Source: a virus. From it: DNA of 40,167 nt. Numbering within the stretch: position 1 is the stretch's first letter; every line of letters begins with the position of its first letter. The stretch lies in the IMG/VR virus record IMGVR_UViG_3300008113_000128, positions 1 through 40,167 of that record. One strand, given 5' to 3'. A program made the translations under genes and the position numbers. Below, piece by piece: positions 3,420 to 40,125 of this stretch. The notes beneath the pieces are model-generated. The model was not told where the DNA came from. It saw nothing but the letters and a program-made list of their open reading frames with translations, and made no database searches.

Positions 3420-3736
3420 AAGACTTTTCAAGCTTTTTTCAAAATTATAGAGCTGATTTAAATAAAATAAAATTGGCGCCAGCAGAAGCAGAGTATGCTT
3501 TTGCCATGGAAAATATTGCTCGCACTTATGGTAAACTTTCCGATAACGACAACAACGGAATTTGGGTCGGCTACGTTCCGCCTGAAAAAAACGATAATAA
3601 AAAAATCGGAGTTGTTTGTGGAAACTGTCATTTTTATGAAGGTAATAATGTTTGTCGTATAATTAGTAACACCGTTGAACCGCAAGGTTATTGCCGTTTA
3701 GCAGCCATATACCCTAATTTGGTGTCAAAATCTTAA
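3413..3736 (+). CDS. Conserved small four-cysteine phage protein
   Basis: The product has 107 residues and starts inside the end of the HNH gene. Its C-terminal half has four ordered cysteines: CGNCHF, then VCRI, then GYCRL. This spacing recurs in phage virion-morphogenesis proteins and suggests a zinc or iron-sulphur cluster site. The N-terminal part is helical and resembles a structural or adaptor segment. The position between HNH and connector genes fits head assembly. No catalytic residues are visible, and the exact role is unknown. Confidence 0.6.
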   Translation: MVKDFSSFFQNYRADLNKIKLAPAEAEYAFAMENIARTYGKLSDNDNNGIWVGYVPPEKNDNKKIGVVCGNCHFYEGNNVCRIISNTVEPQGYCRLAAIYPNLVSKS

Positions 3737-13376: not shown

Positions 13377-13843
13377 TGGCTACAGTTACCGTGTTTACAG
13401 CTGCTCGTATGGCAGCTATTGAAGCTGCGTCAATCGTTAGCGGCGAAGTTGATGTTAATGGCGATTTAATATTAACAAAACATGATAATACAACTATTAA
13501 TGCTGGTAGTGTAATTGGACCCGTTGGTCCTGTTGGTCCTGTTGGCGAAGTCACTCAAGCCGAACTAGAAGCTGCAATTGCTGCCGCGCATGCTGCTGGC
13601 GCAATAACTGAAACTCAGTTGGCTAATGGTTCAGTAACCGCACTTAAAATAGGAACTGGTGCAGTAACAGAAATAAAAATTGCAAGTGGTGCCGTAACAA
13701 ATGATAAAATTGCAAGCGGGGTTTCAGCCAGTAAAATAGCTGGTGTTTATTATCGAAACGGATCAACATCTCAGCATCAAATAATAATATCAACTTCAGC
13801 TCCAAGTGGCGGAAGTAACGGAGATGTTTGGTTGAGGTATTAA
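13376..13843 (+). CDS. Minor tail fibre with short collagen-like and repeat segments
   Basis: The product has 155 residues. The start MATVTVFTAARMAAIEAASI followed by SGEVDVNGDLILTKHDNTTINAG is a fibre attachment domain common in actinobacterial phages. A short Gly-Pro-Val repeat comes next, then a regular series (GSVTALKIGTGAVTEIKI, SGAVTNDKI) that suggests a beta-helical shaft, and a small end ending GGSNGDVWLRY. It overlaps the preceding stop by one base. It probably tethers or contributes to a side fibre together with the next gene. Confidence 0.7.
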   Translation: MATVTVFTAARMAAIEAASIVSGEVDVNGDLILTKHDNTTINAGSVIGPVGPVGPVGEVTQAELEAAIAAAHAAGAITETQLANGSVTALKIGTGAVTEIKIASGAVTNDKIASGVSASKIAGVYYRNGSTSQHQIIISTSAPSGGSNGDVWLRY

Positions 13844-13844
13844 T

Positions 13845-14816
13845 ATGCCCATATATGTTAATGTAAATGGAACTTGGCAAGAACTTGCTGGAGCAGACAG
13901 ACCGTTTGCAAATGTTAATGGTGTATGGCAAGGAATTTCTACAGTCCACGCAAATGTTAATGGAACTTGGCAACAAGTTTATCAGTATGATATAGCTGGT
14001 CCGACTGTACCAACTCCAGTTGTAACTTCATATGGTTCGTATGATAGTATTTCTTGGTCAACTATAACTGATAGTGGTAGTGGTGTTTCTTCAGCAACGT
14101 TGTATCAAGCGTTTCATAATGTTACCGATAACCTTTACGAAAATATGTATAGTTCAATGCCAATTAATATTAATGGGAGTTCGACAACATTTGCTATACC
14201 ATCGGCAAGGCGAAATAGCCCATCGGGTAAACACTATCAAGTTTACTATTGGATTGCGGCAACGGATAATGCCGGAAATACAACATATGGGGATCAAATC
14301 GGCGCGGTTTCTCCGTTCGTTAACACGAAACCACTCGGGACCTACTTCTTTGCCCCAGCAGCAGCGGATTCAAGAAACATCGGGAATACGGCTTGGCTCG
14401 ACGCCACTGTGGAAGGTGTTGTTGGATACTCCGGTAGTCGAGCATATGGTTGTTGGTTTTATGGAACTGACGTGTTTCAAAATGCCTGTAAAGGCTGGAA
14501 TGCTAACTCTGGTACCATATTCATTAAAAGAGCCGCGTCAACAGATTCTAACCGAGGCAACACAGGAACGTTTTATTTACAAACGCATAACCTAGGATCA
14601 AAAGGAAGTTTTGCCGCAACATTTGGTGGAACACTTATAGAGCAATATCTTTCTGGAAACAGTGCTTCGGCGTACGTAAACTTATCTTATGATATGCTAA
14701 CACGACTGCAGGATGGAAGTGGTCAAGGTTTTGGATTAGTCTATCATAGTAATGCCCCAGGTTTCTTGCTTGGAATGAGAGACTTTTCAGGTCTTATAAC
14801 TTTAAACTATTCGTAA
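13845..14816 (+). CDS. Tail fibre / receptor-binding protein with three W-repeats
   Basis: The product has 323 residues. The first 45 contain three short repeats, VNVNGTWQELAG, ANVNGVWQGIS and ANVNGTWQQVY. Next is a fibronectin-III-like domain (PTVPTPVVTSYGS, then YYWIAATDNAGN). The rest is a Gly/Ser/Tyr-rich beta domain with no enzyme motif, probably the receptor-binding head. The gene is adjacent to the small fibre at 13376. Its position between tail chaperone and tape measure is unusual for a fibre. Confidence 0.65.
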   Translation: MPIYVNVNGTWQELAGADRPFANVNGVWQGISTVHANVNGTWQQVYQYDIAGPTVPTPVVTSYGSYDSISWSTITDSGSGVSSATLYQAFHNVTDNLYENMYSSMPININGSSTTFAIPSARRNSPSGKHYQVYYWIAATDNAGNTTYGDQIGAVSPFVNTKPLGTYFFAPAAADSRNIGNTAWLDATVEGVVGYSGSRAYGCWFYGTDVFQNACKGWNANSGTIFIKRAASTDSNRGNTGTFYLQTHNLGSKGSFAATFGGTLIEQYLSGNSASAYVNLSYDMLTRLQDGSGQGFGLVYHSNAPGFLLGMRDFSGLITLNYS

Positions 14817-14861
14817 CTAGTCAAAATGGCAGTAAAACATTTCAAATTTTAGGAGGTTCAA

Positions 14862-15437
14862 ATGACAAAGTATCCGGTGCTACCAATTATTTTACCAGCG
14901 GATTTAAAAAACGCAAAAAATGGTGAATTAAACCAAGACATACTTAGAGAAATAAAATCTCCTAAAGGAAAAATGCACCGCTTAGCGGCGACAGCTTGGA
15001 ATGCTATGCAACTCGATGCGTACTTTAACGGTATCGAGCTAAAACAAGTTGGCGATTATAGAAGTTTAGCGCGACAGGAAGAAATGTTTAAAGATCGTTA
15101 TCAGTTGACACCAACCGATAGACGCCCGCAAGTCACAAGAAGGTATCAAAACAAAACGTGGTATCTTAAAAAAGGAAAAGCACCATCGGCAAGTCCTGGA
15201 ACTTCTAATCATGGTCTGGGACTTGCCGTTGATGTGGCCGATGCCTCGGGGAAAAGACTTGAATGGCTTTTGGGTGATGGGTTTTTAACGAGTAATGCAT
15301 TAAAGTATGGATTTTCTTGGGAAGTTCGAGAAGGACCAAATGCTGAAGCTTGGCATATACGTTATGTCTGCGGAGATAATTTACCGAAAAGTGTTTTAGA
15401 TGCAATTAATGCTTTTCCGTCTTTAGATGTTCGGTAA
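14862..15437 (+). CDS. M15-family peptidase, endolysin or virion lysin
   Basis: The product has 191 residues. The zinc site of VanY/DD-carboxypeptidase-type M15 enzymes is visible: SNHGLGLAVDV provides His117 and Asp124, AEAWH provides Glu162 and His165, and DYRS provides Arg67. It would cut peptide crosslinks of the host wall. There is no signal peptide or wall-binding domain. SD TAGGAGGT precedes the ATG. It lies between fibre and tape-measure genes and not next to the holin at 22.9 kb, so it may act in the virion during entry as well as, or instead of, in lysis. Confidence 0.85.
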   Translation: MTKYPVLPIILPADLKNAKNGELNQDILREIKSPKGKMHRLAATAWNAMQLDAYFNGIELKQVGDYRSLARQEEMFKDRYQLTPTDRRPQVTRRYQNKTWYLKKGKAPSASPGTSNHGLGLAVDVADASGKRLEWLLGDGFLTSNALKYGFSWEVREGPNAEAWHIRYVCGDNLPKSVLDAINAFPSLDVR

Positions 15438-15442
15438 CTTTT

Positions 15443-15826
15443 ATGATTAAAGTTACACAAAAAGGTGATTTTTCCTATTTAATGAATTTTTTAAAAAGAG
15501 TTCAAAACAGAGATAGTGAAATTTATGCTCAGTTAAAACCATATGCCCAAGAAGGTGTTAGAGCTTTAGAACAAGCAACACCAATAGATAGTGGAGAAAC
15601 ATCTAAGTCTTGGTCGTATAGAATTATATTAAATAAAAAAACTACAACCATTATTTGGGAAAACGACAACGTTGAAGATGGAAATAACGTTGCAATTTTA
15701 CTTCAATATGGGCACGCAACTGGAACCGGTGGATATGTTGCTGGATACGATTATATAAATCCAGCAATTCAACCCATATTCGATAAGATTGAATCAAATG
15801 TATGGCAAAATATAACTAGACAGTGA
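15443..15826 (+). CDS. HK97 gp10-like head-tail / tail protein
   Basis: The product has 127 residues: helix, then ATPIDSGETSKSWSYRI, TTIIWENDNVEDGNNVAILLQYGHATGTGGYV and DYINPAIQPIFDKI. This is a clear match to the HK97 gp10-like family, whose members lie at the head-tail interface. In most genomes this gene lies between head closure and tail terminator. Here it is about 4.6 kb further on, just upstream of the tape measure. The ATG at 15443 follows the lysin stop by a few bases. Confidence 0.8.
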   Translation: MIKVTQKGDFSYLMNFLKRVQNRDSEIYAQLKPYAQEGVRALEQATPIDSGETSKSWSYRIILNKKTTTIIWENDNVEDGNNVAILLQYGHATGTGGYVAGYDYINPAIQPIFDKIESNVWQNITRQ

Positions 15827-15839
15827 AAGAAGGTGATTT

Positions 15840-18800
15840 ATGGCTAGTATAGATAATAGAGTTGTTGAAATGAAGTTCGATAATGCTGCATTTCAAACGA
15901 AAGTGGACTCCACTATAAAAAGTATTGAACGTCTTGATGCTAGCCTTAAATTATCCGAAGGCACTCAAGGTTTAAAAAATGTTGATGCCGCAGCAAAAGA
16001 AATGAATTTTGCTGGTATAAGTTCTTCATTGGACAGTATAACTAGCAAGTTTAATATATTTTCATTAGTTGGTGTTACCGCTTTAGTAAATGTTGCTAAT
16101 AAAGCTGTTGATGCGGGTATTGCACTTGGTAAGTCGCTAAGCTTAGAACAAGTAATAACTGGTTTCCGCGAATACGAAACCAACATGCGTTCTATTCAAA
16201 CTATTATGGCTAACACTCGTTCTGAAGGCGCAACTCTTCAGCAAGTTAATGATGCATTAGACATATTAAACGAGTACTCTGATCAAACCATTTATAACTT
16301 TAGCGAAATGACTAAAAATATTGGTACCTTCACAGCAGCTGGTGTTAAACTTGATACGGCTGTCGGATCAATTAAAGGTATTGCAAACTTAGCGGCTGTT
16401 TCCGGTTCAAGTTCGGAACAAGCATCTAATGCGATGTATCAGTTGTCGCAAGCAATATCTACTGGTTCTCTAAAGTTGATGGACTGGAACTCAGTTGTTA
16501 ATGCTGGTATGGGCGGTAAAGTTTTCCAAGAAGCTTTGTTTGAAACCGGTAAAACTTTAGGAACAATTAGTAATGTCCCGATAGATCAAACATTTGATGA
16601 GTGGACAAAAGCTGGAAATACTTTCCGAGGGTCGTTAGAGCAAGGATGGATTACGTCTGATGTACTAACGCAAACTTTAAGAAACTTTACCGGTGAACTT
16701 TCCAAAGAACAATTATTAGCAATTGGATATACTGAAAAACAAGCAGACCAGATTGTTGAAATGGGCGGGGTTGCTGTCGAAGCAGCCACAAAAGTTAGAA
16801 CATTTACTCAATTAATTGACGTTGCCCGAGAGTCTGTTGCATCTGGATGGTCACAATCTTTTCGTATTATTCTTGGTGACTTTGAACAAGCAACCGAATT
16901 ATTTAGTAGCGTTAGCGCAGCATTCAGTAATATTGTCGGAAAGTCGGCAGATTCTAGAAACGCAATACTTAAACAATGGGCCGATTCATCTGGACGCCAA
17001 GAAGTTATTGATGGTTTAACATTTGCTGCAAAAGCTTTAGGCGATGTTATAAATGCAGTTAAAGCTGCTTTTGCGGATATATTTCCGCCTATAACTGCTG
17101 TCACTCTTGTTAAATTATCTCGTGGTTTTAGGGAATTTACTGAAAGTTTGGTTCCCACAAAAGTACAAATAGTTACAATTAAAACTATATTTAGAGGCGT
17201 ATTTGCTGCTTTTGAAATTGGCGTAACAATTGTAAAAGAAATAGCATCATCATTTAAAACTTTATTTAGCGCATTGGCGGGTTCCGAAGGAACTTCTGAT
17301 TTTCTGCGATTTGTAAAAGATTTATCTAAAGATATAGTTAAATTAAATGAAGTCTTAGTTGATGGCGAAATAATTGCAAAAGTATTTGAAACTTTGACTA
17401 ATTTTATAATAAGGTTTGCTAAGGACCCCATTGGTGAGTTAGAAAAGTTAAAAGATATAATTGTTGAAGTATTTAATATATTTACAACTGGAAGTGAAAG
17501 TCTCGGTAATTTACCGAGTGGAGCGGTTGACTTTTTACTTAAAGTCCGCGATGCAATACTTAATCTTGGGGATGTAACGCCATTCTTTGCAATATTAACA
17601 AAAGGTTTTACACACTTAAAAGATAGTATAACTTCTATATCTGAAGGGTTAGCCCCAGTTATAGATATGTTAGAAAAGTTTACAGACTATGTTGTTAACT
17701 GGTTTAAAGAATTGGCCAATAAGATGGGCGCGGCTGCTGAACCTGGAGACTTTAGTAAGGTTCTGGACGCTGTAAACTTAGGCATAGTTGCCGGAATTGG
17801 CGGATTACTAGCATATTTGGCCAAGGGTGTTAACTTTGATTTTGGCGGTATATTTGAGCGTGTAACTTTAGCTTTAGACGAAGTAACTGGTACGTTACGA
17901 GCAATGCAAACCGATTTAAAGGCTAATGCATTACTGAAGATTGCTGCTGCAATTGGTATTCTAGCTCTTGCTGTTTTATTATTAGCAAGTGTTGACTCCG
18001 TTGCACTAACCAAAGCAATGACTGCTGTTGCCGTTGGCCTCGGTCAATTAATGGTTTCATTCTCACTTTTGTCAAAAATATCAGGACCAAAATCTGCGGC
18101 TACATTTACAATAGCAAGCAGTGGTTTAATTGCTTTGTCCGGTGCTGTCTTATTAATGGCTTTAGCCGTAAAAACATTATCGAGTTTAAGTGTTGCTGAT
18201 CTTGCTAAAGGCTTGATAGCTATAACTCTTATAACAGAAACACTTGTCTTTGTGGCAAAACAGCTTTCAGGAAATACAAGTGGTCTTATTCGAGCGGGTA
18301 TTGGATTAATTGGTGTTGGTATTGCTTTAAATATTTTAGCCTCTGCAGTTATGCTATTTTCGCTTATGGATCTTGGACAGATGTCCAAGGGTTTAATAGG
18401 TGTTACAATAGGTTTGACTGTTATAACTGGCGCGTTAAGACTGATGCCTTCGGATATGATGAGCAAAGGTGCTGGTTTAATTCTTATAGCTGGAGCTTTA
18501 AATATATTAGCGATTGCTGTTACTATATTTAGCCGAATGTCTTGGAACGAAATGGCTAAGGGATTTGGGGCTGTTGCTGTTGGTCTTACTATTATAGCAT
18601 TGGCTATGCATATGATGCCCACAAATATGCTCATCACTGGCGCTGGATTATTAGTTGTTAGTGCGGCTCTTGTGGTTATAGGATATGCGTTAAATGAAAT
18701 AGCAAAACTTTCATGGAACGATTTAGCTAAGGGATTAGTTGCAATCGCTGGTGCTTTACTATTTTTGACAGTAGCCGCGCATGCAATGTCTGGTGCTTTA

Positions 18801-24776: not shown

Positions 24777-25520
24777 ATGAACTTAAGTAAAGTAATTGTA
24801 AAAACGCAAGATGTTTTACATAAAAATTCTCAAACGATTTTAACATCATTTGCTATTAGTGGTGTTGTAACAACAACTTATCTTGGCGCAAAAGCATCAT
24901 TTAAATCCTGCCGAGATATTGACTATCATCACGCAATATATCCAGATGATGACTTGGAATTACGAGATGCAATAAATATTGTCTGGCGAAACTATATACC
25001 AGCTGCTTTGTCTGGAGCGGCAACTATTGGTTGTATTTTAGGTTCTCATAAAATTAGTAGTAGAAAAACAGCTGCGGCGCAAGCAGCTTTTGCTTTGTCA
25101 GAGCGTATATTCAACGAGTATAAAGATAAAGTCGTTGAGCAAATTGGTCCTAAAAAAGAACAAGATATACGCGACAAAATGGCACAAGAAAAAGTAAATA
25201 AAAATGATCCTAGCTCCACGCAAGTATTTATCACCGGAAACGGTAATGTTTTATGCTGCGAAGGATACACTGGACGTTATTTCCATAGTGATATGGAAAG
25301 TCTTAGGCGAGTAGAAAATAAAATTAATGCTAAATTAAATGCTCACGATCACGCTTCGCTTAGTGACTTGTATTATTTATTAAATATACCAGAAACTAAA
25401 GTTTCTGATGACTTGGGCTGGGATTCTGGACGTCTTTTAGAGTTAGAGTTTTCATCGACAATAACCCCAGATGGAAGACCATGTTTAGTTTTTAATTATA
25501 ATTATATTAGATCTATATAA
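24777..25520 (+). CDS. DUF6353-type membrane-associated phage protein A
   Basis: The product has 247 residues. Two hydrophobic segments are present (about 22-40, ILTSFAISGVVTTTYLGA; and 74-92, PAALSGAATIGCILGSH). Between and after them is a conserved helical part (AAFALSERIFNEYKDKVVEQIG). The C-terminal domain is soluble (HASLSDLYYLLNIPET, then DLGWDS). The protein encoded at 26820 is a paralogue with the same order. DUF6353 proteins are common in phages of Actinobacteria and Firmicutes; their role is unknown. SD AAGGAGACAA precedes the ATG. Confidence 0.7.
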   Translation: MNLSKVIVKTQDVLHKNSQTILTSFAISGVVTTTYLGAKASFKSCRDIDYHHAIYPDDDLELRDAINIVWRNYIPAALSGAATIGCILGSHKISSRKTAAAQAAFALSERIFNEYKDKVVEQIGPKKEQDIRDKMAQEKVNKNDPSSTQVFITGNGNVLCCEGYTGRYFHSDMESLRRVENKINAKLNAHDHASLSDLYYLLNIPETKVSDDLGWDSGRLLELEFSSTITPDGRPCLVFNYNYIRSI

Positions 25521-26176: not shown

Positions 26177-26818
26177 ATGGAATATCCCAGTAACAGTAAT
26201 AAGAAAGATATCGAAAAAAAGCAATTGCCGGAAAAGAAGATTGAGAAGGTTGTTACTGGTCAAGTTTTGACTAAAAAGAAGTCAACTGGTAGCAAATTTA
26301 AATCTGTATTTTTTGGCGGGGAATTTAAAGGCGCTTTTCGTTATATACTAGCCGATGTTCTATTACCAGCAGCTAGAAATCTTTTAGTTGATGCTACAAC
26401 TAAGGGTATCGAAACTATTGTTTACGGAGAATCTAGACGAACACAAACACGTCGAGTTCCGGAATATTCAAATAGAATTCAGTATAATCGGCCTGTTAAT
26501 CGTGGTGTAGACCCGCACGAACGAGATAGGCCGTTTATGCCTGGCCAGCGTACGAATAGAACATTTAGGCCCGAAACAAGACAGCAATCTTCGGACATTA
26601 TTCTATCAACGCGAGAAGAAGCAGAAATTGTTTTAGAGCGATTAATTGATATTGTCGATATGTACGACGTTGTTTCTCTAGCCGATTTGTATGATTTAGT
26701 TGGTTTACCTTCTAATCACACGGATAATAAATGGGGCTGGACGTTCTTGAATAACGGTCTTGTTACTCAAGTTCGAGAGGGTTTCTTATTGCAACTACCA
26801 CCTATGGAAGCGATTTAA
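26177..26818 (+). CDS. Conserved phage protein with C-terminal DLYDLVG module
   Basis: The product has 213 residues from the ATG at 26177, preferred over a GTG at 26171 because AGGA is spaced 8 bases from the ATG. The start MEYPSNSNKK, then KKIEKVVTGQVLTKKK, FKSVFFGGEFKGAFRYIL and DVLLPAARNLLVDATTKGIE, is a family I recognise from actinobacterial phages. A disordered Arg/Pro-rich middle follows. The C-terminus (REEAEIVLERLIDIVDMY, VSLADLYDLVGLPSNHTDN, KWGW) resembles the ends of the DUF6353 proteins. The function is unknown; the basic middle could bind nucleic acid or polyanions. Confidence 0.65.
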   Translation: MEYPSNSNKKDIEKKQLPEKKIEKVVTGQVLTKKKSTGSKFKSVFFGGEFKGAFRYILADVLLPAARNLLVDATTKGIETIVYGESRRTQTRRVPEYSNRIQYNRPVNRGVDPHERDRPFMPGQRTNRTFRPETRQQSSDIILSTREEAEIVLERLIDIVDMYDVVSLADLYDLVGLPSNHTDNKWGWTFLNNGLVTQVREGFLLQLPPMEAI

Positions 26819-26819
26819 C

Positions 26820-27683
26820 ATGAAATTTATGGAAAAAGTAAACAATAATTTAAGCACAAAACTTCATCGTCAGATCCTAATTGTTAAGAAAAACTCGCCG
26901 CACATTAGTTTTGGCGTTGGCGTAGTTGGTGTTATTGCCGGTACAGCTTTAGCCTGCAAAGCAACGCTTAAACTTACTGGTAATTATTCTCAGTTTAAAG
27001 ATGAAATCATCGACGTGGAGACGTATAGTCCGGACGAAGATCGTAATCGAGATCTCGCGCATGTCTATGCAAAAAATGCAGTTACGCTTGCTAAAGCATA
27101 CGGACCATCAGCAATAGTTATGGGTTTGTCTATTGCAGCATTAACTGGATCACATGTGACCATGACAAAGCGAAACAAGGCGCTTACCGCTGCGTATGTA
27201 ACTCTTCAAAAAGCTTATGACGAATATCGAATTCGTGTTCGAGAAAAGTACGGCGAAGAAGAAGAGCTGAATATTTATCACGCCATTCAAGAAGAAAATA
27301 AGAAGACCAAAGAAGTTATAAAATTAGCAGATCCGAATAAGTTTTCGCCATATGCTCGTTTCTTCGATGAAGCTTCAACCGAGTGGACAAAAGATCCAGA
27401 AATGAATCGTTTGTTTGTTACTTGCCAGCAGAATTACCTCAACCATGTTCTTCAAGTTCGTGGACATGTATTTCTAAACGAAGCATATGATGCTCTCGGT
27501 TTAGAGCGTTCAACGGCTGGCGCTGTTGTTGGCTGGGTAATGGGCGATAATGGTGATAACTATATTGACTTTGGTATTTTCGAAGCTCAAAACGCAAGAT
27601 TTGTAAATGGTAGTGAACGTAGTATTCTGTTGGATTTTAACGTAGACGGTGTCATTTACGATAAGATTGGTAGGAAAAAATAA
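26820..27683 (+). CDS. DUF6353-type membrane-associated phage protein B
   Basis: The product has 287 residues from the ATG at 26820, one base after the preceding stop. It is a paralogue of the 24777 product: first span ISFGVGVVGVIAGTALACK, then second span SAIVMGLSIAALTGSH followed by KRNKALTAAYVTLQKAYDEYR. The C-terminus (HVFLNEAYDALGLERS, then GWVMGD and YIDFGIF) is the same kind of module as in its neighbours. Tight spacing shows one operon. Its membrane position suggests an envelope or replication-anchor role; no function is known. Confidence 0.7.
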   Translation: MKFMEKVNNNLSTKLHRQILIVKKNSPHISFGVGVVGVIAGTALACKATLKLTGNYSQFKDEIIDVETYSPDEDRNRDLAHVYAKNAVTLAKAYGPSAIVMGLSIAALTGSHVTMTKRNKALTAAYVTLQKAYDEYRIRVREKYGEEEELNIYHAIQEENKKTKEVIKLADPNKFSPYARFFDEASTEWTKDPEMNRLFVTCQQNYLNHVLQVRGHVFLNEAYDALGLERSTAGAVVGWVMGDNGDNYIDFGIFEAQNARFVNGSERSILLDFNVDGVIYDKIGRKK

Positions 27684-28417
27684 TGGATAGCATTTATTAT
27701 AACGAAAAAAAGTATTCGGCTTCAGTCCTGCTAATTAGCGGGGCTGCGGCCTATGCTTTGGGGTTTGCGACTAATTATTTTTGGAATAAAAAGAAGCTAA
27801 ACGATTGTTTTATAGAGCTTGAAGGCGACGATCATTACAGCAAAGCTGATTTTGAAGCCACTTTAGTTGACCCCGATCAGCTTCAATTTGACTTTGACTT
27901 TAAGCATGCTGAGTATGATACAACTGCTGTTTTAGTCGATAATAATCCTTATAGCATTGAAGCTACCCCAAATGATCCAAACGATATAGTTGTTGATAAA
28001 CAACCAAATCCTGTTAGTATTTTTAGAGGTGATGCAAATATGGATTGGGACTTTGAGGCAGAATTGGCAAAGCGTTCTCCTGATAAACCATATATTATAC
28101 ACGAAACCGAATACTTTGCTCATGAGACAGACTATTCGCAGTCAACATTAACATATTATGCTGGCGACGATATTCTTGTTGACGAACGTGAAGTTCCAAT
28201 TTATAATTACAAATCCGTAACCGGAGAATTACTGTTTGGTCATGGTAGTGAAGATCAAAATGTTGTTTATGTTAGAAATGATCGACTTTCGGGGGAGTAT
28301 GAAATTCTTAGAGACTCTGGATCTTATGAGATTGAGGTCTTGGGAAATCAGTATGAAAAAACCCTTCGTGATATCGATTTAAAAAGCGGTAACGTATTAA
28401 AGTTTAGGCCCGAGTAA
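27683..28417 (+). CDS. Membrane-anchored phage protein of unknown function
   Basis: The product has 244 residues. It overlaps the previous gene by one base. One N-terminal hydrophobic segment (residues 13-32, SVLLISGAAAYALGFATNYF) is followed by a basic stop (WNKKK) and an acidic soluble domain with many Asp and Tyr (EYDTTAVLVDNNPYSI, ETEYFAHETDYSQSTLTYY). It has no known motif. It always seems to travel with the DUF6353-type genes in phages I recall. It may form a membrane complex with them. Confidence 0.6.
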   Translation: MDSIYYNEKKYSASVLLISGAAAYALGFATNYFWNKKKLNDCFIELEGDDHYSKADFEATLVDPDQLQFDFDFKHAEYDTTAVLVDNNPYSIEATPNDPNDIVVDKQPNPVSIFRGDANMDWDFEAELAKRSPDKPYIIHETEYFAHETDYSQSTLTYYAGDDILVDEREVPIYNYKSVTGELLFGHGSEDQNVVYVRNDRLSGEYEILRDSGSYEIEVLGNQYEKTLRDIDLKSGNVLKFRPE

Positions 28418-28962
28418 TGATTAGCGAGCCTATTGAAAACTTATATTTCAACTGGCTCTGCGAAAAAGTTCAAAAAGTGTTGGTGCCAACTCCATCTTTA
28501 ACGTATTATTATCTTTTAAAACAATTACATCAAACTGAATATGTTTGGTTAGTTGTTGGAGATGATAATCGCGTTGAAGATGGGGTTGCACTACGCCTAT
28601 CTTTTTTGTCCGAAGCCAACTTGATACCAGAAGCAGATTGGCTTTATTCTGGATGTTCAGTTTTAGAAATGCTAATTGCATTTTCTGAACGCGCCGAATT
28701 TAATACAGAATTAACTTCATATTTTTGGTTTTGGCATTTTATAAGAAACTTAAACTTAATGGAATATAATGACGCAAGTGATTATAACTATTTGGAAATA
28801 GATGATATTTTAACAACATTTGTAAATAGAGATTATGAACCAGAAGGCCATGGCGGACTTTTTCCGTTGTGCAGAGCAAAAAAAGATCAAACAAAAGTTG
28901 AAATATGGTACCAGTTTTTTGAGTATTTAAACGACGAACATTTTAACGAAAACTATATGTAA
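28417..28962 (+). CDS. Conserved phage protein, helical, unknown function
   Basis: The product has 181 residues, starting MISEPIENLYFNWLCEKV, then SLTYYYLLKQLHQTEYVWLV, and later the acidic stretch NYLEIDDILTTFVNRDYEP, then GGLFPLCRA and EIWYQFFEYLNDEH. It is rich in aromatics. The pattern is familiar from operons with DUF6353-type proteins, but no function is recorded in memory. Its ATG overlaps the previous stop, and it ends 12 bases before the large replication gene. Confidence 0.6.
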   Translation: MISEPIENLYFNWLCEKVQKVLVPTPSLTYYYLLKQLHQTEYVWLVVGDDNRVEDGVALRLSFLSEANLIPEADWLYSGCSVLEMLIAFSERAEFNTELTSYFWFWHFIRNLNLMEYNDASDYNYLEIDDILTTFVNRDYEPEGHGGLFPLCRAKKDQTKVEIWYQFFEYLNDEHFNENYM

Positions 28963-28974
28963 AGGAGGATATAT

Positions 28975-31900
28975 TTGGACTTTTATAAGATTTTAATGAA
29001 AGTTAAAAAAGACGGAACTGTTCAAGTGTATCCGGATTGGCAAGTTGATAGTTCTAAAGATTTAATGGTTCAAGGCAAATCGTTTTATGCATTTTGGGAC
29101 GAAAATAACTCTATTTGGTCTCGAGATGAATTTAGACTTCGGCAATTAATAGACGCTGATCTTTTTCGCTATGCTAAAGAAAATATCGATGATAATGTTC
29201 CGTATGAAATTTTAACGGTTCAAAGTTTTAGTACTAGAATGTGGGAAACATTAAATAAATTTATTAAAAACTTTCCCGATAATTATCATCAATTAGACAC
29301 AGATTTAACTTTTATAAATACTAAAGTAACAAAAAATGATTATGTTAGTAAAAAACTAAACTATGCATTAGAGCCTGGAAATACAAACGCTTGGGATGAG
29401 CTTTTACAAACGTTATATTCAGAAAGCGAACGCGAAAAAATAGAATGGGCTATAGGCGCAATTGTTTCTGGCGATTCCAAAAATATTCAAAAGTTTTTGG
29501 TTTTTTATGGTCCTCCAGCTAGTGGAAAATCTACAATATTAAATATTATTGAAAAATTATTTGCTGGATACACCACAACTTTTGATGCTCGTGCTTTAGC
29601 GAGTACAGGATCTAGTTTTTCTACCGACGTCTTTAAAGGAAATCCTTTAGTTGCTATTCAACACGATGGAGATCTTTCTCGTATTGAAGATAATGCTAAA
29701 TTAAACTCGATTACTTCGCACGAAGATATGACCATGAACGAAAAATATAAACCTAGTTATACCGCTAGGGTTAACGCATTTTTGTTTATGGGTACTAATA
29801 AGCCGGTTCAAATTACAGATGCTAAAGCTGGTACTATTCGTCGTTTGATTGACGTGCACCCGACCGGTGTTAAAATATCCCCAGAACGTTATCATATTTT
29901 GATGGAGCAAATTGATTTTGAACTTGGTCATATTGCCCATAAATGTTTGCAAAAGTACAAGCGAATGGGTAAATATTACTACAACGGATACAAACCAGTT
30001 CAAATGATGTATCAAACAGACGAGTTTTATAATTTTATTTCGGCTCATTATGATATTTTTAAGTCGGAAGATGGTGTAACATTAAAGCGCGCATGGATGA
30101 TGTATAAGGAATATTGTTCCGAAATAAATATAACTAAATTGATGAAGTATTCGGCATTTCGAGAAGAATTGACAATGTATTTTAGACATTTCGAAGATCG
30201 CATAAAGGTTGGTGATGATTGGGTGAGAAGTTACTATTTTGGTTTTGAAGGAATCCCAAAGTCCACCCCCTTTATCCCCGATAAATCGTATGTTATTGAA
30301 CTTAGGGATATTTACGACTCAAATGAAATGTCGGCTTTCGATCATAAATACAAAGATCAACCAGCTCAACTTGCTAGTTCCTCCGGTAAGCCAAAACAAA
30401 AATGGATAGACGTAACGACAACTCTTAGCGATATCGATACTACTGCGCTTCACTTTGTAAAAGTTCCGGAAAATCATATTGTAATCGACTTTGATTTGGT
30501 AAACGAAGACGGCGAAAAAGATGTAAATCTTAATTTAGAAGCTGCTTCTAAATGGCCTCCTACTTATACCGAATTAAGTAAGAGCGGACAAGGAGTTCAT
30601 TTGCATTACGAATATAACGGTAATGTCCATGAACTTGCGTCGATTTATGATGTCGGAATCGAAGTAAAAACACTTCTTGGTGATAGTTCTTTACGAAGAA
30701 GGTTGTCAAAAGCAAATAGTTTGGATATTACAACGATTAGTAGCGGACTACCCAAAAAGGAAAAGCGAATGATAGATAATAAAAGTATTCAAAGCGAAAA
30801 AAGTTTACGCGATCTTATCGAACGCAACCTTAAAAAAGAAATTCACCCTGGAACAAAACCATCTATTGACTTTATTCATAAAATATTAGAAGACGCTTAT
30901 AATAACGATCTTAGTTATAATATTTTAGACCTAAAACCAAGGATATTTTCTTTTGCGGCTAAAAGTAGTAATCAATCTACAGCCTGTATAAAAATAGTAC
31001 AAACTATGCATTTTACTGGTAAGAATGATATGCCTGCGCCGACTAATCTGGACGATAAGCCGATTGTATTCTTTGACGTTGAAGTTTATCCAAACTTATT
31101 CATTGTTTGCTGGAAATATAAAGACAGCGAAAATGTTGTTCGTATGATAAACCCTACGCCGAATGAAATTGAAGCTTTATTTTCTCTAAAGCTTGTTGGT
31201 TTTAACAATCGCAGATACGATAATCATATTTTATATGCTCGTTCTTTAGGGTATACGAATCTTCAACTATATGATCTTTCGCAGAAAATAATTACTGATA
31301 ATAATTACAATGCCGCATTTGGAGAAGCTTATAATCTTTCATATGCTGATATTTATGACTTTAGTTCTAAAAAGCAGGGTCTAAAAAAGTTTATGATTGA
31401 ACTCGGAATAAATCATATGGAAATGGATATTCCGTGGGATTCGCCTGTTCCAGAAGAACTTTGGTCTAAGGTTGAAGATTATTGTGTTAATGACGTTTTA
31501 GGAACCGAAGCTGTTTTTAATGCGCGAAAAGAAGATTTTAAAGCACGTGAAATTTTAGCGGAGCTCTCCGGCTTAACGATAAATCATACAACACAAAACC
31601 ACACTGCTAAAATTATATTTGGTGAAGATAAGCGTCCAAAAGACCAATTTGTTTATACTGATCTTTCTACTATATTTAAGGGGTACGCATTTGATGGGAA
31701 AGAAAGTTTATACAGAGGAGAAATTGTTGGTGAGGGTGGCTATGTCTACGCCGAACCTGGTTTCTACGAACACGTCACTGTTTTGGACGTGGCGTCTATG
31801 CATCCGACGAGTATCGAGCAACTTAATTTATTTGGGAAATACACAAAAAACTTTTCTGCCCTTAAAGAAGCACGGTTGGCAATTAAGCATAAAGAATACG

Positions 31901-32721
31901 ATCGAGCCCGTAGTTTGCTTGACGGCAAGCTCGCTAAGTTTTTGGACGGTGCTGAAAGTAATCCCAAGAGTAGTGAGGATTTATCGTACGCTCTTAAGAT
32001 CGTCATCAACATCGTCTATGGCCTCACTAGTGCCACATTTGATAGCATATTTAGAGACAACCGGAATAAAGATAATATCGTAGCGAAGCGTGGAGCTTTG
32101 TTTATGATAAATCTTAAAAATGAAGTTCAATCACGTGGATTTAATGTTATACACATTAAGACCGACTCAATTAAAATACCAAACGCTACACCAGAAATAA
32201 TTGATTTTGTATCGAGTTATGGTAAAGAGTTTGGTTATGAGTTTGAGCTTGAGGCGCAGTATAGTAAGTTTTGTCTTGTAAACGATGCTGTATACATTGC
32301 TAGAGAAAATGATAAATGGACGGCTGTTGGAGCACAATTTCAACATCCATATGTAATGAAAACTTTATTTTCAAAAGAGCCCATTGAGTTTTCTGATTTC
32401 TGTGAAGTTAGAAATGTTACGCAAGGCGCAATGTATTTAGACACGTTAGACTCTGATAATATTGAAGATATGACGCATGTTGGTAGAACTGGAAGTTTTG
32501 TTCCGGTTCTAGACAATGGCGGAAGTCTTTGGCGGGTGAAAGACGGAAAGAAATATGCTGTAACCGGAACAAAAGGCTACAAATGGGTTGAACGTGAAAT
32601 AGCGTATAGCAGAAAGTTATCTAATTCCTTAAATATTGATATGCAGTATTTTGGGAGTTTGGTGCAAGAAGCTATGGAAACAATTAACAAATTCTACGAT
32701 TTTGAAGATTTTGTTTCTTAG
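28975..32721 (+). CDS. Replication polyprotein: SF3 helicase, primase, exonuclease and family B DNA polymerase
   Basis: The product has 1248 residues from a TTG behind AAAGGAGGATATA. The SF3/D5-type helicase has Walker A GPPASGKST (179-187), VAIQHDGD near Walker B (226-233) and sensor FMGTNKP (271-277). A primase-polymerase-like domain has VIDFD (503-507) and SGQGVHLHY (537-545). The 3'-5' exonuclease has FFDVEVYP (699-706), GFNNRRYDNHIL (742-753) and YCVNDV (836-841). PolB has motif A LDVASMHPTS (937-946), motif B KIVINIVYG (1008-1016) and motif C IKTDSI (1061-1066). One chain therefore carries unwinding, priming, proofreading and synthesis. Phages with separate genes are the norm. Confidence 0.9.
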   Translation: MDFYKILMKVKKDGTVQVYPDWQVDSSKDLMVQGKSFYAFWDENNSIWSRDEFRLRQLIDADLFRYAKENIDDNVPYEILTVQSFSTRMWETLNKFIKNFPDNYHQLDTDLTFINTKVTKNDYVSKKLNYALEPGNTNAWDELLQTLYSESEREKIEWAIGAIVSGDSKNIQKFLVFYGPPASGKSTILNIIEKLFAGYTTTFDARALASTGSSFSTDVFKGNPLVAIQHDGDLSRIEDNAKLNSITSHEDMTMNEKYKPSYTARVNAFLFMGTNKPVQITDAKAGTIRRLIDVHPTGVKISPERYHILMEQIDFELGHIAHKCLQKYKRMGKYYYNGYKPVQMMYQTDEFYNFISAHYDIFKSEDGVTLKRAWMMYKEYCSEINITKLMKYSAFREELTMYFRHFEDRIKVGDDWVRSYYFGFEGIPKSTPFIPDKSYVIELRDIYDSNEMSAFDHKYKDQPAQLASSSGKPKQKWIDVTTTLSDIDTTALHFVKVPENHIVIDFDLVNEDGEKDVNLNLEAASKWPPTYTELSKSGQGVHLHYEYNGNVHELASIYDVGIEVKTLLGDSSLRRRLSKANSLDITTISSGLPKKEKRMIDNKSIQSEKSLRDLIERNLKKEIHPGTKPSIDFIHKILEDAYNNDLSYNILDLKPRIFSFAAKSSNQSTACIKIVQTMHFTGKNDMPAPTNLDDKPIVFFDVEVYPNLFIVCWKYKDSENVVRMINPTPNEIEALFSLKLVGFNNRRYDNHILYARSLGYTNLQLYDLSQKIITDNNYNAAFGEAYNLSYADIYDFSSKKQGLKKFMIELGINHMEMDIPWDSPVPEELWSKVEDYCVNDVLGTEAVFNARKEDFKAREILAELSGLTINHTTQNHTAKIIFGEDKRPKDQFVYTDLSTIFKGYAFDGKESLYRGEIVGEGGYVYAEPGFYEHVTVLDVASMHPTSIEQLNLFGKYTKNFSALKEARLAIKHKEYDRARSLLDGKLAKFLDGAESNPKSSEDLSYALKIVINIVYGLTSATFDSIFRDNRNKDNIVAKRGALFMINLKNEVQSRGFNVIHIKTDSIKIPNATPEIIDFVSSYGKEFGYEFELEAQYSKFCLVNDAVYIARENDKWTAVGAQFQHPYVMKTLFSKEPIEFSDFCEVRNVTQGAMYLDTLDSDNIEDMTHVGRTGSFVPVLDNGGSLWRVKDGKKYAVTGTKGYKWVEREIAYSRKLSNSLNIDMQYFGSLVQEAMETINKFYDFEDFVS

Positions 32722-33108: not shown

Positions 33109-33390
33109 ATGCAATATTTTATGTTTGATCCAAAACGAAACAAATACTTCAAAGGATATGAATCATATCCTGCTGATGACGAATCAGATTATGTAAGCAC
33201 TAGACTGGGATTTTGTGACCATGTAATAGAAGCAATGCGTTTTCCGTCTGAGCAAGAGGCTTTGTATTACCTTTATAAAGAATATGGAATGGACTATACG
33301 CAATCCACATTTTGTGTTATTGCTATTCCAGAAAAATTATATAGCAAAATAGAAAAAACTTATATTGAAGAAAGAGAAAGATATGCCTGA
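33109..33390 (+). CDS. 93-residue protein of unknown function
   Basis: The ATG at 33109 is favoured over 33103 because GGAGG at 33099-33103 is spaced 5 bases from it. The product starts MQYFMFDPKRNKYFKGYE and includes LGFCDHVIEAMRFPSEQEAL and ends in a charged helix (EKTYIEERERYA). The middle (FPSEQEALYYLYKEYG) resembles small phage proteins with a two-strand, one-helix fold. No catalytic motif. The 3' end overlaps the next gene by eight bases. Confidence 0.55.
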   Translation: MQYFMFDPKRNKYFKGYESYPADDESDYVSTRLGFCDHVIEAMRFPSEQEALYYLYKEYGMDYTQSTFCVIAIPEKLYSKIEKTYIEERERYA

Positions 33391-33847
33391 GCCGAAGACA
33401 TTTATGGTAGAGGACGCCCAGCTTATATTTAAAAACTTTGCTGGTAAGGAAGATAAATATAATCGCGCTGGCGATCGAAACTTTAGTGTTATTTTATCCT
33501 CTGAAGTTGCTGTCCAAATGGAAAAAGATGGTTGGAATGTTAAGTGGTTGAAGCCTCGAGAGGAAGACGACGAGCCTACCCCTTACATTGCTGTTGCTGT
33601 AAACTTTAAAAACCGACCGCCTCGTATTGTAATGTTAACTTCCACTTCGCGTACACCTGTTAGTGAAGATATGGTTGAAGCATTGGATTATGCGGATATT
33701 GCCATGGTTGATCTCATTGCCCGTGGTTACGAGTGGGATGTAAATGGTAAACGAGGCATTAAAGCATATTTGCAGTCAATGTTTATCACAATTGAAGAAG
33801 ACGCATTAGAGCAAAAGTACTCGTCTGTTCTAGACGATGATGAATAA
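33383..33847 (+). CDS. Single-stranded-DNA-binding-like phage protein (candidate)
   Basis: The product has 154 residues from the ATG at 33383, within the end of the preceding gene. The sequence TFMVEDAQLIFKNFAGKEDKYN, then GDRNFSVILSSEVAVQMEKDGW, NVKWLKPREEDDE, PYIAVAVNFKNRPPRIVML and GYEWDVNGKRGIKAYLQSMF ends with an acidic tail (SVLDDDE). I recognise it as widespread in phages near replication genes. The beta-rich core plus acidic C-terminus resembles single-strand binding proteins, but this is inference. It is close to the polymerase gene. Confidence 0.55.
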   Translation: MPEPKTFMVEDAQLIFKNFAGKEDKYNRAGDRNFSVILSSEVAVQMEKDGWNVKWLKPREEDDEPTPYIAVAVNFKNRPPRIVMLTSTSRTPVSEDMVEALDYADIAMVDLIARGYEWDVNGKRGIKAYLQSMFITIEEDALEQKYSSVLDDDE

Positions 33848-36475: not shown

Positions 36476-36548
36476 GCCTGTGTAGCCCAGTGGCAGAGGC
36501 AGAGGACTTAAAATCCTTCAAGCGTGGGTTCGAATCCCACCACAGGTA
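36476..36548 (+). tRNA. tRNA-Leu(UAA), short variable loop
   Basis: A 73-nt cloverleaf: acceptor GCCTGTG/CACAGGT, anticodon arm GAGGA, loop CTTAAAA, TCCTT with anticodon TAA; T-arm GTGGG, TTCGAAT, CCCAC. Discriminator A; CCA not encoded. The variable loop is only CAAGC, whereas bacterial tRNA-Leu normally has a long arm, so the amino-acid identity should be checked. Confidence 0.88.
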
Positions 36549-36559
36549 CTAAATATAAA

Positions 36560-36585
36560 CATACATAAAATACAACGCATATAAT
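36560..36585 (+). promoter_or_regulatory. Repeated promoter motif, copy 8 (divergent first box)
   Basis: TATAAT at 36580-36585 with TACAACGCA upstream; the first box reads CATACA rather than TTCGCA at the 14-base spacing. It lies between tRNA-Leu and the 98-residue gene. Confidence 0.55.
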
Positions 36586-36607
36586 AGAGACTCTATGAGG
36601 AGGGTTT

Positions 36608-36904
36608 ATGGATGATTTAAGATCTATAAAAGGCTTTAATAGTTTTGCGATAGGTGTTTTTGTCGGATCGGCAGTAACAGCTATTTTTTCTTTTAAAAAC
36701 ATAAAAAAGAGACTTCTTTCTTTTGCCGATTTAATTGTAACATACGATACAAATCTTAGTATTATTTCCACAAGAGAAGATGCTTTAATCGATTTAATTA
36801 CGCCTGTTATTCCTTATTTAACAGAAGAGGCAATAACTAAGTATAACAATACTATTGAGTTTTTAGAATTAGTTCATTTCAACGATATTCAGGCGCATGG
36901 GTAA
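36608..36904 (+). CDS. 98-residue membrane protein
   Basis: The ATG at 36608 follows GAGGAGGGTTT. MDDLRSIKGFNSFAIGVFVG begins one membrane helix (FAIGVFVGSAVTAIFSF, about residues 14-30). It is followed by basic residues and a soluble helical domain (IVTYDTNLSIISTREDALI, YLTEEAITKYNNTIEFLEL). This predicts a cytosolic C-terminus. It is read from promoter copy 8. No known family. Confidence 0.62.
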   Translation: MDDLRSIKGFNSFAIGVFVGSAVTAIFSFKNIKKRLLSFADLIVTYDTNLSIISTREDALIDLITPVIPYLTEEAITKYNNTIEFLELVHFNDIQAHG

Positions 36905-36906
36905 AC

Positions 36907-36932
36907 TTCGCAAAATATACAAGGACTATAAT
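36907..36932 (+). promoter_or_regulatory. Repeated promoter motif, copy 9
   Basis: TTCGCA at 36907-36912, 14 bases (with TACAAGGAC), TATAAT at 36927-36932, and a start with SD TTGGAGGAA 20 bases on. Confidence 0.72.
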
Positions 36933-36956
36933 AGGAAATAACTAATTGGAGGAATA

Positions 36957-37169
36957 ATGATATATACGAAAGAAACTCGAAAAATCGTGGAAGATTTTCT
37001 TGGTGAAATTGATTTGGAAATCAAGCGGATTAAAGATGTTATTCTGTATGCTGATGTAAAAGATGTCAACTATACAGAAAGGTTGAATATGCTTGATGAT
37101 CGAAGAGAGTTGATCAGGCTTGACCATGATTTGAAGATGCTTTTATTCAATACCAGAACTCACCAATAG
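36957..37169 (+). CDS. 70-residue helical protein of unknown function
   Basis: The ATG at 36957 follows GGAGGAATA. The product MIYTKETRKIVEDFLGEIDLE, then IKRIKDVILYADVKDVN, MLDDRRELIRLDHDLKMLLF, is almost fully helical with heptad-like hydrophobics, so a small coiled-coil dimer is likely. It forms a private unit with promoter copy 9 and the terminator at 37184. No family is recognised. Confidence 0.65.
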   Translation: MIYTKETRKIVEDFLGEIDLEIKRIKDVILYADVKDVNYTERLNMLDDRRELIRLDHDLKMLLFNTRTHQ

Positions 37170-37178
37170 TTCTAAAAA

Positions 37179-37227
37179 GATTTCCCGTGCGTAAAACCAC
37201 GGGTTTTCTTTTTTACTTTTATACTTT
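37179..37227 (+). repeat. Terminator-bearing direct repeat, copy A
   Basis: About 49 bases containing a terminator and the following CTTTTATACTTT are nearly identical to 38061-38110. The two copies differ by a few bases in the loop and after the T-run. Between them lie three tRNAs and two genes, so homologous recombination could delete or amplify this cassette. Confidence 0.85.
37184..37214 (+). terminator. Rho-independent terminator
   Basis: CCCGTG at 37184-37189 pairs with CACGGG at 37198-37203, followed by TTTTCTTTTTT. It closes the 70-residue gene unit and precedes the tRNA-Lys. Confidence 0.9.
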
Positions 37228-37229
37228 TT

Positions 37230-37302
37230 GCTCCTTTAGCTCAGTCGGTAGAGCAGCGGACTTTTAATCCGTTGGTCCAGGGTTCGAGCCCCTGAGGGAG
37301 CA
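37230..37302 (+). tRNA. tRNA-Lys(UUU)
   Basis: Acceptor GCTCCTT/AGGGAGC, D-arm GCTCAGTCGGTAGAGC, anticodon loop CTTTTAA with TTT, T-arm CAGGG, TTCGAGC, CCCTG. Discriminator A, no encoded CCA. All arms are canonical. It decodes AAA, a very common codon in this genome. Confidence 0.95.
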
Positions 37303-37406
37303 CGCTTAAGTAGGGGTTTGGATGTGGCCTCCATGCAGTAGCTAAACGTCAAGCGAAGTGACTTAAAGAAGGCGTGACAGTCGGAGAGACGACATTAATG
37401 TTATTT
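37303..37406 (+). other. Structured spacer between tRNAs, unassigned
   Basis: No gene is seen in these 104 bases. There are several short helices: CGCTT pairs with AAGCG, GTCA with TGAC, and GTGG with CCAT. A GTAGCTAAACG stretch recalls, but does not match, the pseudoknot linker. It may be a tRNA remnant, a processing spacer, or a further small RNA. Confidence 0.3.
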
Positions 37407-37480
37407 GAGCCAGTAACTCAGTTGGTTAGAGTAGCATTCTTATAAAATGCAAGTCGCGGGTTCAATTCCCGTCTGGCTCA
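37407..37480 (+). tRNA. tRNA-Ile(UAU)
   Basis: Acceptor GAGCCAG/CTGGCTC, anticodon arm GCATT, loop CTTATAA, AATGC with anticodon TAT. T-arm GCGGG, TTCAATT, CCCGT. Reads AUA codons directly, without lysidine modification, which suits an AT-rich phage in a host where AUA is likely rare. Confidence 0.92.
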
Positions 37481-37488
37481 CAAGTATG

Positions 37489-37562
37489 GGGACGATAGCT
37501 CAGTCGGTTAGAGCAGGGCACTCATAATGCCTCGGTCGCGGGTTCAATTCCTGCTCGTCCCA
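37489..37562 (+). tRNA. tRNA with CAU anticodon (elongator Met or lysidine-modified Ile)
   Basis: Acceptor GGGACGA/TCGTCCC, anticodon loop CTCATAA with CAT, T-arm GCGGG, TTCAATT, CCTGC. The paired G1-C72 argues against initiator tRNA. Distinguishing Met from Ile2 needs comparison of acceptor and anticodon-stem identity bases. Confidence 0.92.
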
Positions 37563-37581
37563 CTAAACAGAAAGGTTTAAT

Positions 37582-38290: not shown

Positions 38291-39469
38291 ATGGAACTTA
38301 TGCCTCATCAGAAAAAAGCGGTAGAAAATCTACGCAATGGTAAAATTTTGTATGGTGGTGTTGGTACTGGTAAATCACTAACAGCTTTAGCATATTACAT
38401 GAAAGCCGAAGCGCCAAAAGACATTTATATTATCACAACAGCGAAAAAGCGTGATAGTTTAGAATGGGAGAGAGAAGCTGCTAAACTTGGTATTGGTCCT
38501 CGAGTGGGCGCGACCGTTGCTGGACGTTTGATTGTTGACTCATGGAATAATATTAAAAAGTATATCAAAATGGAAGATGCTTTCTTCATATTTGACGAGC
38601 AGCGATTGGTTGGTAGTGGTGCATGGGTTAAAACATTTCTCAAAATAACAGCAAATAACGAATGGATATTACTAACGGCTACTCCTGGAGATACATGGTT
38701 GGATTATATTCCAGTATTTATCGCTAATGGTTTTTACCGTAATGCGACAGAGTTTAAACGCGAACATGTTATTTATGCACCATATACAAACTTCCCAAAA
38801 GTTCAAAGATATGTTGGTGAAGGTACGCTAGAGAAGTACCGCAACATGCTTCTTGTAGAAATGCCTTATCTAAAGCATACCACAAGACATGTCAACCATG
38901 TGATGGTTGAGTATGATAAAGAAAAATACACCAAACTTGTTAAGGAGCGTTGGAACATATTTGAAGATGAGCCGATTAAAGATGTCGGTGAGTTATTTCG
39001 ACTAATGCGAAAACTTGTAAATACTGATCAATCGCGTGTGCAGGCTCTGGACGAGCTTGTTCATAAACACCGTAAAGTTATTGTATTCTATAATTTTGAC
39101 TATGAGTTAGAGATATTAAGGACTTTTCACTGGGTTGCTAAAGTTGCAGAGTGGAACGGACATAAAAAAGAACCAATACCAGATCATGATTCATGGATAT
39201 ATTTAGTTCAATACACAGCAGGTGCTGAGGGTTGGAACTGTATAGAAACTGATTGTATGGTATTTTGGAGTCTTTCATACTCTTGGAAGAACGTTGAGCA
39301 AGCGCAAGGACGTATCGATCGGCTAAATACACCATTTAAAGATTTATATTATTACATGTTTATGTCAAATTCTTCTATAGATCAGGCCGTGAAAAAAGCG
39401 CTAGCCAACAAGCAAATCTTCAATGAGATGCAATATTACAAAGAAAACATGGAGCTTGTCAAAGTATGA
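38291..39469 (+). CDS. Superfamily 2 DNA helicase (SNF2/DEAD-like)
   Basis: The product has 392 residues. The Q-like start is MPHQKKAVENL. Walker A is GGVGTGKS (22-29). Motif II is DEQR (102-105) in place of DEAH. Motif III is LTATP (128-132). Motif VI is QAQGRIDR (337-344). The SAT-like segment and the arginine finger place it in SF2, close to the SNF2-like helicases often found in phage replication modules. It likely helps replication or recombination. The SF3 helicase within the polymerase fusion would do the fork unwinding. Confidence 0.88.
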   Translation: MELMPHQKKAVENLRNGKILYGGVGTGKSLTALAYYMKAEAPKDIYIITTAKKRDSLEWEREAAKLGIGPRVGATVAGRLIVDSWNNIKKYIKMEDAFFIFDEQRLVGSGAWVKTFLKITANNEWILLTATPGDTWLDYIPVFIANGFYRNATEFKREHVIYAPYTNFPKVQRYVGEGTLEKYRNMLLVEMPYLKHTTRHVNHVMVEYDKEKYTKLVKERWNIFEDEPIKDVGELFRLMRKLVNTDQSRVQALDELVHKHRKVIVFYNFDYELEILRTFHWVAKVAEWNGHKKEPIPDHDSWIYLVQYTAGAEGWNCIETDCMVFWSLSYSWKNVEQAQGRIDRLNTPFKDLYYYMFMSNSSIDQAVKKALANKQIFNEMQYYKENMELVKV

Positions 39470-39628: not shown

Positions 39629-39684
39629 ATATAAAAAGTTTTTTTAAGTGTATTTTTTTGACAAATGACAAGAAAGGTATTTTT

Positions 39685-40125
39685 ATGCAAACTTTTGTGC
39701 CAGAAGGTCAAGATATTGTACTTGGCTTTAAACATCTAGATTATCGTCGACTAGGTAAACAAAGAGTAGAAGCTTGGCAAATCTTAAATAGTATTAGAGG
39801 TATTGATAATCACGGTAATGCACTATTGACTCGTGGGTGGATTTCACATCCGGCAACAAAAATGTGGTCAGAATATCCAAGAGCACTAGCCTACTACGGA
39901 ATACTTTGCTGCGAAGAATGGTTAAATAGAGGATATCGCGACTCTTTATTGGAGCGTTTCGGAGATGTTTATGAAATGCTAAAATTTGAAGATCCGTCTA
40001 TGCCACCCTTTCTAGATGATATTATGGAATCACACAGATCAAATTTAATTAGAAAATATCCAGAATACTACATTCCAATTTGGCCAAACACCCCAAATAA
40101 TTTGCCATATGTGTGGCCGATATAA
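39685..40125 (+). CDS. MSMEG_6728-like / pyrimidine-dimer-glycosylase-related protein
   Basis: The product has 146 residues from the ATG at 39685 behind GAAAGGTATT. The key stretch LDYRRLGKQRVEAWQIL, then GWISHPATKMWSEYPRALAYYGILCCEEW, matches a protein family shared by actinobacteria and their phages and related to pyrimidine dimer DNA glycosylases. RRLGKQRVE and HPATKMW hold the conserved basic and aromatic residues. A DNA-repair or DNA-binding function is likely but not proven. Its presence supports an actinobacterial host. Confidence 0.7.
   Translation: MQTFVPEGQDIVLGFKHLDYRRLGKQRVEAWQILNSIRGIDNHGNALLTRGWISHPATKMWSEYPRALAYYGILCCEEWLNRGYRDSLLERFGDVYEMLKFEDPSMPPFLDDIMESHRSNLIRKYPEYYIPIWPNTPNNLPYVWPI

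Follow-up and report, generated by a model that had tools for sequence, protein, structure and literature searches.

The locus examined here raises the question of whether a single viral gene can encode the helicase, primase, proofreading exonuclease, and DNA polymerase of a replication system in one chain and, if so, whether such a protein is unusual. It lies in a 40,167-base IMG/VR record, the whole of which was analyzed and is referred to as the window. The record carries terminase, portal, tail, and tape-measure genes and in all likelihood represents part of the genome of a tailed phage; its terminase is ∼81% identical to those of Streptomyces phages.

A single open reading frame of 1,248 codons

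The first-pass annotation placed one 1,248-residue protein at positions 28975 to 32721, a call that withstood closer inspection. The plus-strand frame opens with a TTG codon and contains zero internal stops (Table 1). When the whole window was shuffled 200 times, no plus-strand open run exceeded 205 codons; thus, a frame of 1,248 codons is no accident, and a chance ORF was rejected. The reverse strand of the same interval is full of stops, and a gene there was likewise rejected, as none was found. A strong ribosome-binding site (AAAGGAGG) ends 6 bases ahead of the TTG, and related genes start at the equal position, but with an ATG or GTG codon. PHROG 4210 (DNA polymerase) matched the product over residues 1 to 1247 with 1,852.6 bits.

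Table 1. Predicted features of the replicase gene and its single-stranded DNA-binding neighbor, in window coordinates.
Feature	Residues	Coordinates	Strand	Basis
HelPrimPolB-type four-activity DNA replicase (predicted)	1248 aa	28975..32721	+	Single open frame; PHROG 4210; GP55 identity
Ribosome-binding site AAAGGAGG		28961..28968	+	Read directly from sequence
N-terminal region ahead of ATPase core	1-108	28975..29298	+	VIA-align ranges from model residues 5-20
SF3 (D5/P4-type) helicase ATPase core	109-330	29299..29964	+	DUF5906; structure matches
Walker A, GPPASGKST	179-187 (K185 = GP55 K189)	29509..29535	+	Alignment
Post-ATPase region	340-425	29992..30249	+	Aligned with C-terminal part of NrS-1 and AsfvPrimPol helicases
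PrimPol/AEP catalytic domain	445-597	30307..30765	+	Structure match to NrS-1 PrimPol
AEP motif I, D505-x-D507	within VIDFD 503-507	30487..30495	+	Invariant in 24 proteins
AEP motif II, SKSGQGVHLHY	includes SGQGVHLHY 537-545	30577..30609	+	Alignment
AEP motif III candidate, E563-V-K565	563-565	30661..30669	+	E and K invariant (24 proteins)
Helical domain, GP55 aHD counterpart	∼598-690	30766..31044	+	Alignment; model helices
DEDD 3'-5' exonuclease domain	∼697-880	31063..31614	+	D701/E703 = GP55 D712/E714
Family B polymerase domain	∼881-1248	31615..32718	+	Structure matches
Polymerase motif A, DVASMHP	938-944 (D938 = GP55 D949)	31786..31806	+	Alignment
Polymerase motif B, KIVINIVYG	1008-1016	31996..32022	+	Alignment
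Polymerase motif C, KTDS	1062-1065	32158..32169	+	Invariant in 24 proteins
ssDNA-binding protein		33365..33847	+	Pfam Phage_ssDNA_bind, E value 1.6e-63; 37% identity to phage 1706 gp66

Relationship to HelPrimPolB and GP55

The architecture is already known. In their 2020 description of the group, Kazlauskas and colleagues gave the name HelPrimPolB to family B polymerases (PolBs) with SF3 helicase and PrimPol domains fused at the N terminus, credited the fusion to an earlier paper, placed the group within the EpsilonN-like clade of PolBs, and called its polymerase motif C deviant (PMC7544198). A relative, GP55 of Lactococcus phage 1706 (YP_001828703/ABV91262), was purified and characterized in 2025 by Zhang and colleagues as a “four-in-one replicase” with helicase, RNA primase, DNA polymerase, and 3'-5' exonuclease activities in one chain (PMC12205980). 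The GP55 helicase is UTP/dTTP dependent; the enzyme displaces strands, copies single-stranded M13 DNA completely without an added primer, extends primers in cis and in trans, and forms a dimer. A new helical domain (aHD) that follows the primase domain is essential for priming, as are residues D509, Y655, and F667, and more than 1,000 homologues were reported (PMC12205980). The novelty of the fusion that the first-pass annotation implied therefore does not hold, given the group description in PMC7544198 and the at least 252 phage records that match the window protein across at least 80% of its length.

We estimate with a probability of roughly 0.93 that the phage makes its own replicase from this gene and that the protein belongs to the HelPrimPolB/GP55 family, a reading that draws on sequence, structural models, and analogy to GP55. 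Both the SF3 helicase domain, which occupies the N-terminal side of the chain, and the PrimPol domain precede a polymerase in the same chain, and no difference from the HelPrimPolB group was found. The domain order is that of GP55, to which the window protein, 69 residues shorter, is 39.4% identical across 1,217 aa. All of the GP55 residues that were mutated (K189, D509, Y655, F667, D712, E714, and D949) are kept, as K185, D507, Y648, F660, D701, E703, and D938, respectively.

Domain composition from sequence profiles and predicted folds

Folds were predicted from an alignment of 15 sequences as two overlapping halves, residues 1 to 700 (mean pLDDT, 76) and 436 to 1248 (mean pLDDT, 86); the mutual placement of the domains is not given by these models. 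In the helicase part, the Pfam helicase core family DUF5906 passed its cutoff (E value, 5.1e-12), while the P4-family primase C-terminal model of NCBIfam (TIGR01613) reached 9.6e-16, yet stayed under its curated cutoff; several primase-helicase families in PHROGs also matched this part. Model residues 5 to 336 superimposed on the SaPI5 primase-helicase (PDB entry 7ola; Z, 14.6; RMSD, 4.6; 278 residues), with further matches to poxvirus D5/E5 and AsfvPrimPol (Z, 12 to 14) and to papillomavirus E1 (1tue; Z, 8.4). Confidence in the helicase-core model is low at about residues 210 to 290. Ahead of the core, the chain aligns structurally with the pre-ATPase region of the D5, SaPI5, and AsfvPrimPol structures; beyond it, the alignment with the NrS-1 CTR extends to model residue 424, and a Pfam Pox_D5 match in the post-ATPase region was weak and not significant.

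When the helicase-primase half was compared with solved structures by sequence alone, no hit was significant (best E value, 0.041); thus, the primase call required fold comparison. Residues 447 to 597 of the model matched NrS-1 PrimPol N300 (7rr3; Z, 9.3; RMSD, 3.5; 141 residues), which bears out the primase fold proposed earlier for residues 450 to 600. D507 of AEP motif I aligns with GP55 D509, and E563-V-K565 may represent AEP motif III, as judged from its conservation. The segment that follows is a predicted counterpart of the GP55 aHD: its key residues Y648 and F660 align with GP55 Y655 and F667, and the model places four helices at residues 608 to 676, between primase and exonuclease. 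A faint match of this segment to lactococcin-A immunity proteins (E value, 0.12 to 0.29) was treated as chance.

Fold similarity does not prove activity, and a single family member has been tested; the middle segment might accordingly be a PrimPol-fold relic that no longer primes, in which case host primers would be used and the protein would be a helicase-polymerase only. We regard such a loss as very unlikely, since D505/D507, motif II, E563, and F660 never vary across 24 proteins, Y648 gives way solely to F, in 2 of them, and GP55 priming depends on the residues that correspond to D507, Y648, and F660 (PMC12205980). In addition, the subset of window ORFs scanned against PHROGs gave no match to a separate primase gene, the record being a fragment. 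A priming-competent primase within a four-activity replicase thus remains the preferred reading.

Exonuclease motifs were located at FFDVEVYP (699 to 706, with D701 and E703), N744 to N750 (Exo II), and Y836 to D840 (Exo III, within YCVNDV 836 to 841). The model of about residues 678 to 1245, which spans exonuclease and polymerase, matched Pol alpha (8g9l; Z, 16.9; RMSD, 5.9; 467 residues), Escherichia coli Pol II (Z, 14.7), and KOD polymerase, and Foldseek gave a match to 9N polymerase (E value, 2.9e-15). Matches to the Pfam family B polymerase and NCBIfam DNA polymerase II models were subthreshold. Motif C reads KTDS in the window protein, GP55, and all 24 aligned proteins; the usual PolB motif C is DTDS, with most PolBs carrying D where KTDS has K.

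The motifs named in the first-pass annotation (GPPASGKST, VIDFD, SGQGVHLHY, FFDVEVYP, YCVNDV, and polymerase motifs A, B, and C) are all present and can be aligned in 24 proteins. Its domain identities and their order (helicase, primase, exonuclease, and polymerase) are correct according to structure matches and alignment, while its domain list missed the helical domain, whose GP55 counterpart is essential for priming. The helicase fold is common to D5/P4-type primase-helicases, NrS-1 PrimPol, the SaPI5 primase-helicase, and AsfvPrimPol, and the primase-domain fold of NrS-1 PrimPol also matches. In these proteins, the primase domain, where present, precedes the helicase, and the chain has no PolB; in the window protein, the primase (residues 445 to 597) instead follows the helicase (residues 109 to 330).

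Distribution and phylogeny of the fused form

Carriers of the replicase include phages of Gordonia, Rhodococcus, Arthrobacter, Streptomyces, Curtobacterium, Microbacterium, Lactococcus, and Faecalibacterium, among others, and among the matches listed the label is mostly “DNA primase/polymerase.” Proteins so labeled (PHROG 4210) from Gordonia, Rhodococcus, Arthrobacter, Streptomyces, Curtobacterium, and Faecalibacterium phages are full-length homologues with ∼50 to 60% identity, from which the window protein differs by ordinary sequence divergence. The record of Rhodococcus phage ReqiPoco6 (GU580942) annotates primase and PolB domains in one protein and also cites likeness to a Lactococcus phage protein. 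A scan of IMG/VR yielded 22 further loci, the closest full-length one being 90% identical.

All relatives examined in full (23/23) are encoded by one uninterrupted frame; the fused, one-chain form is normal for this lineage and not an oddity of the window genome. Large phage proteins are at times cleaved, but with no split relative among these 23, it is hardly credible that the frame yields a polyprotein or that its parts are made separately through cleavage, internal starts, or frameshifting. GP55, moreover, was purified and is active as one 1,317-residue chain, and loss of its polymerase domain cripples its helicase (PMC12205980). Streptomyces phage Rainydai, which has two “DNA primase/polymerase” genes, was considered as a case of a split replicase and rejected: gene 57 is complete, and the other, gene 53, encodes a small additional helicase-like piece. 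Gene 53 (positions 2974 to 3471 of the Rainydai stretch examined), upstream of the complete gene, encodes 165 residues that resemble the SF3 helicase part alone and constitutes a partial, diverged extra copy.

In the tree, the window protein groups with IMG/VR sequences inside a large branch to which the actinobacteriophage proteins also belong, while GP55 and P092, both from Lactococcus phages, form a separate long branch with full support. Walker A reads GPPASGKST in the window protein versus GAKGTGKGT in GP55, and the Walker B region reads IQHDGDLS versus IDADSDIS. These surroundings (29509 to 29535 and 29650 to 29680) differ between the GP55 branch (phage 1706 orf55, 13583 to 17536) and the larger branch, and, as far as sequence can suggest, the differences may bear on the unusual UTP/dTTP dependence of GP55. 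Because of the long separate branch and these differences, details of GP55 such as its nucleotide preference may not carry over to the window protein.

Proposed function

By analogy to GP55, we infer that the window protein has the same activities and replicates the genome of its phage. The primase domain and the following helical domain would lay a short RNA primer on a single-stranded template, the family B domain would elongate it, and the DEDD exonuclease would proofread. The SF3 domain would aid in binding and unwinding the duplex, such that synthesis displaces the downstream strand, and the single-stranded DNA-binding protein encoded a short distance downstream probably coats single strands. 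Joint action of the modules in one chain, as first suggested from the motifs, is supported by homology because GP55, with the same domain order, performs all four reactions (PMC12205980). One-chain helicase-primase-polymerases are useful as minimal-replisome models and might be developed into tools for amplifying DNA without primers; the window sequence adds a member to the larger branch of the family and no new principle.

Genes surrounding the replicase

The single-stranded DNA-binding protein is the counterpart of phage 1706 GP66 and a likely partner of the replicase, and a second helicase gene (38291 to 39469) corresponds to GP67 of that phage. Because neighboring genes, including these two, are common to phage 1706 and other carriers, the replicase belongs to a conserved replication module. 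Genes just upstream of the replicase are common to the Gordonia, Rhodococcus, and Streptomyces carriers.

Directly upstream, positions 28417 to 28962 encode a 181-residue protein that belongs to PHROG 4678 and to no Pfam family. Its homologues adjoin the replicase upstream in the compared Gordonia, Rhodococcus, and Streptomyces phages and lie one small gene away in a Faecalibacterium phage; the product is a candidate partner protein. Since the two branches diverge in the residues surrounding Walker A and B, we advance a doubtful, composite proposal: that the larger branch couples its helicase to a nucleotide other than that used by GP55 (e.g., ATP rather than UTP/dTTP) and that the 28417-28962 product is a dedicated replicase partner.

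Farther upstream are two diverged DUF6353/PHROG 2152 copies (24777 to 25520 and 26760 to 27683; 23% identity), a family that accompanies the replicase in several phages and includes gp51 of phage 1706. Four tRNA genes (Leu-TAA, Lys-TTT, Ile-TAT, and Met-CAT) occupy positions 36476 to 37563. The GC content of the window is low (37.6%), although its terminase and replicase are similar to the ones encoded by actinobacteriophages, the hosts of which usually have high GC contents. Near the replication region, positions 39658 to 40125 hold a pyrimidine dimer DNA glycosylase-like gene (Pfam Pyr_excise; E value, 3e-16), a predicted DNA-repair gene.
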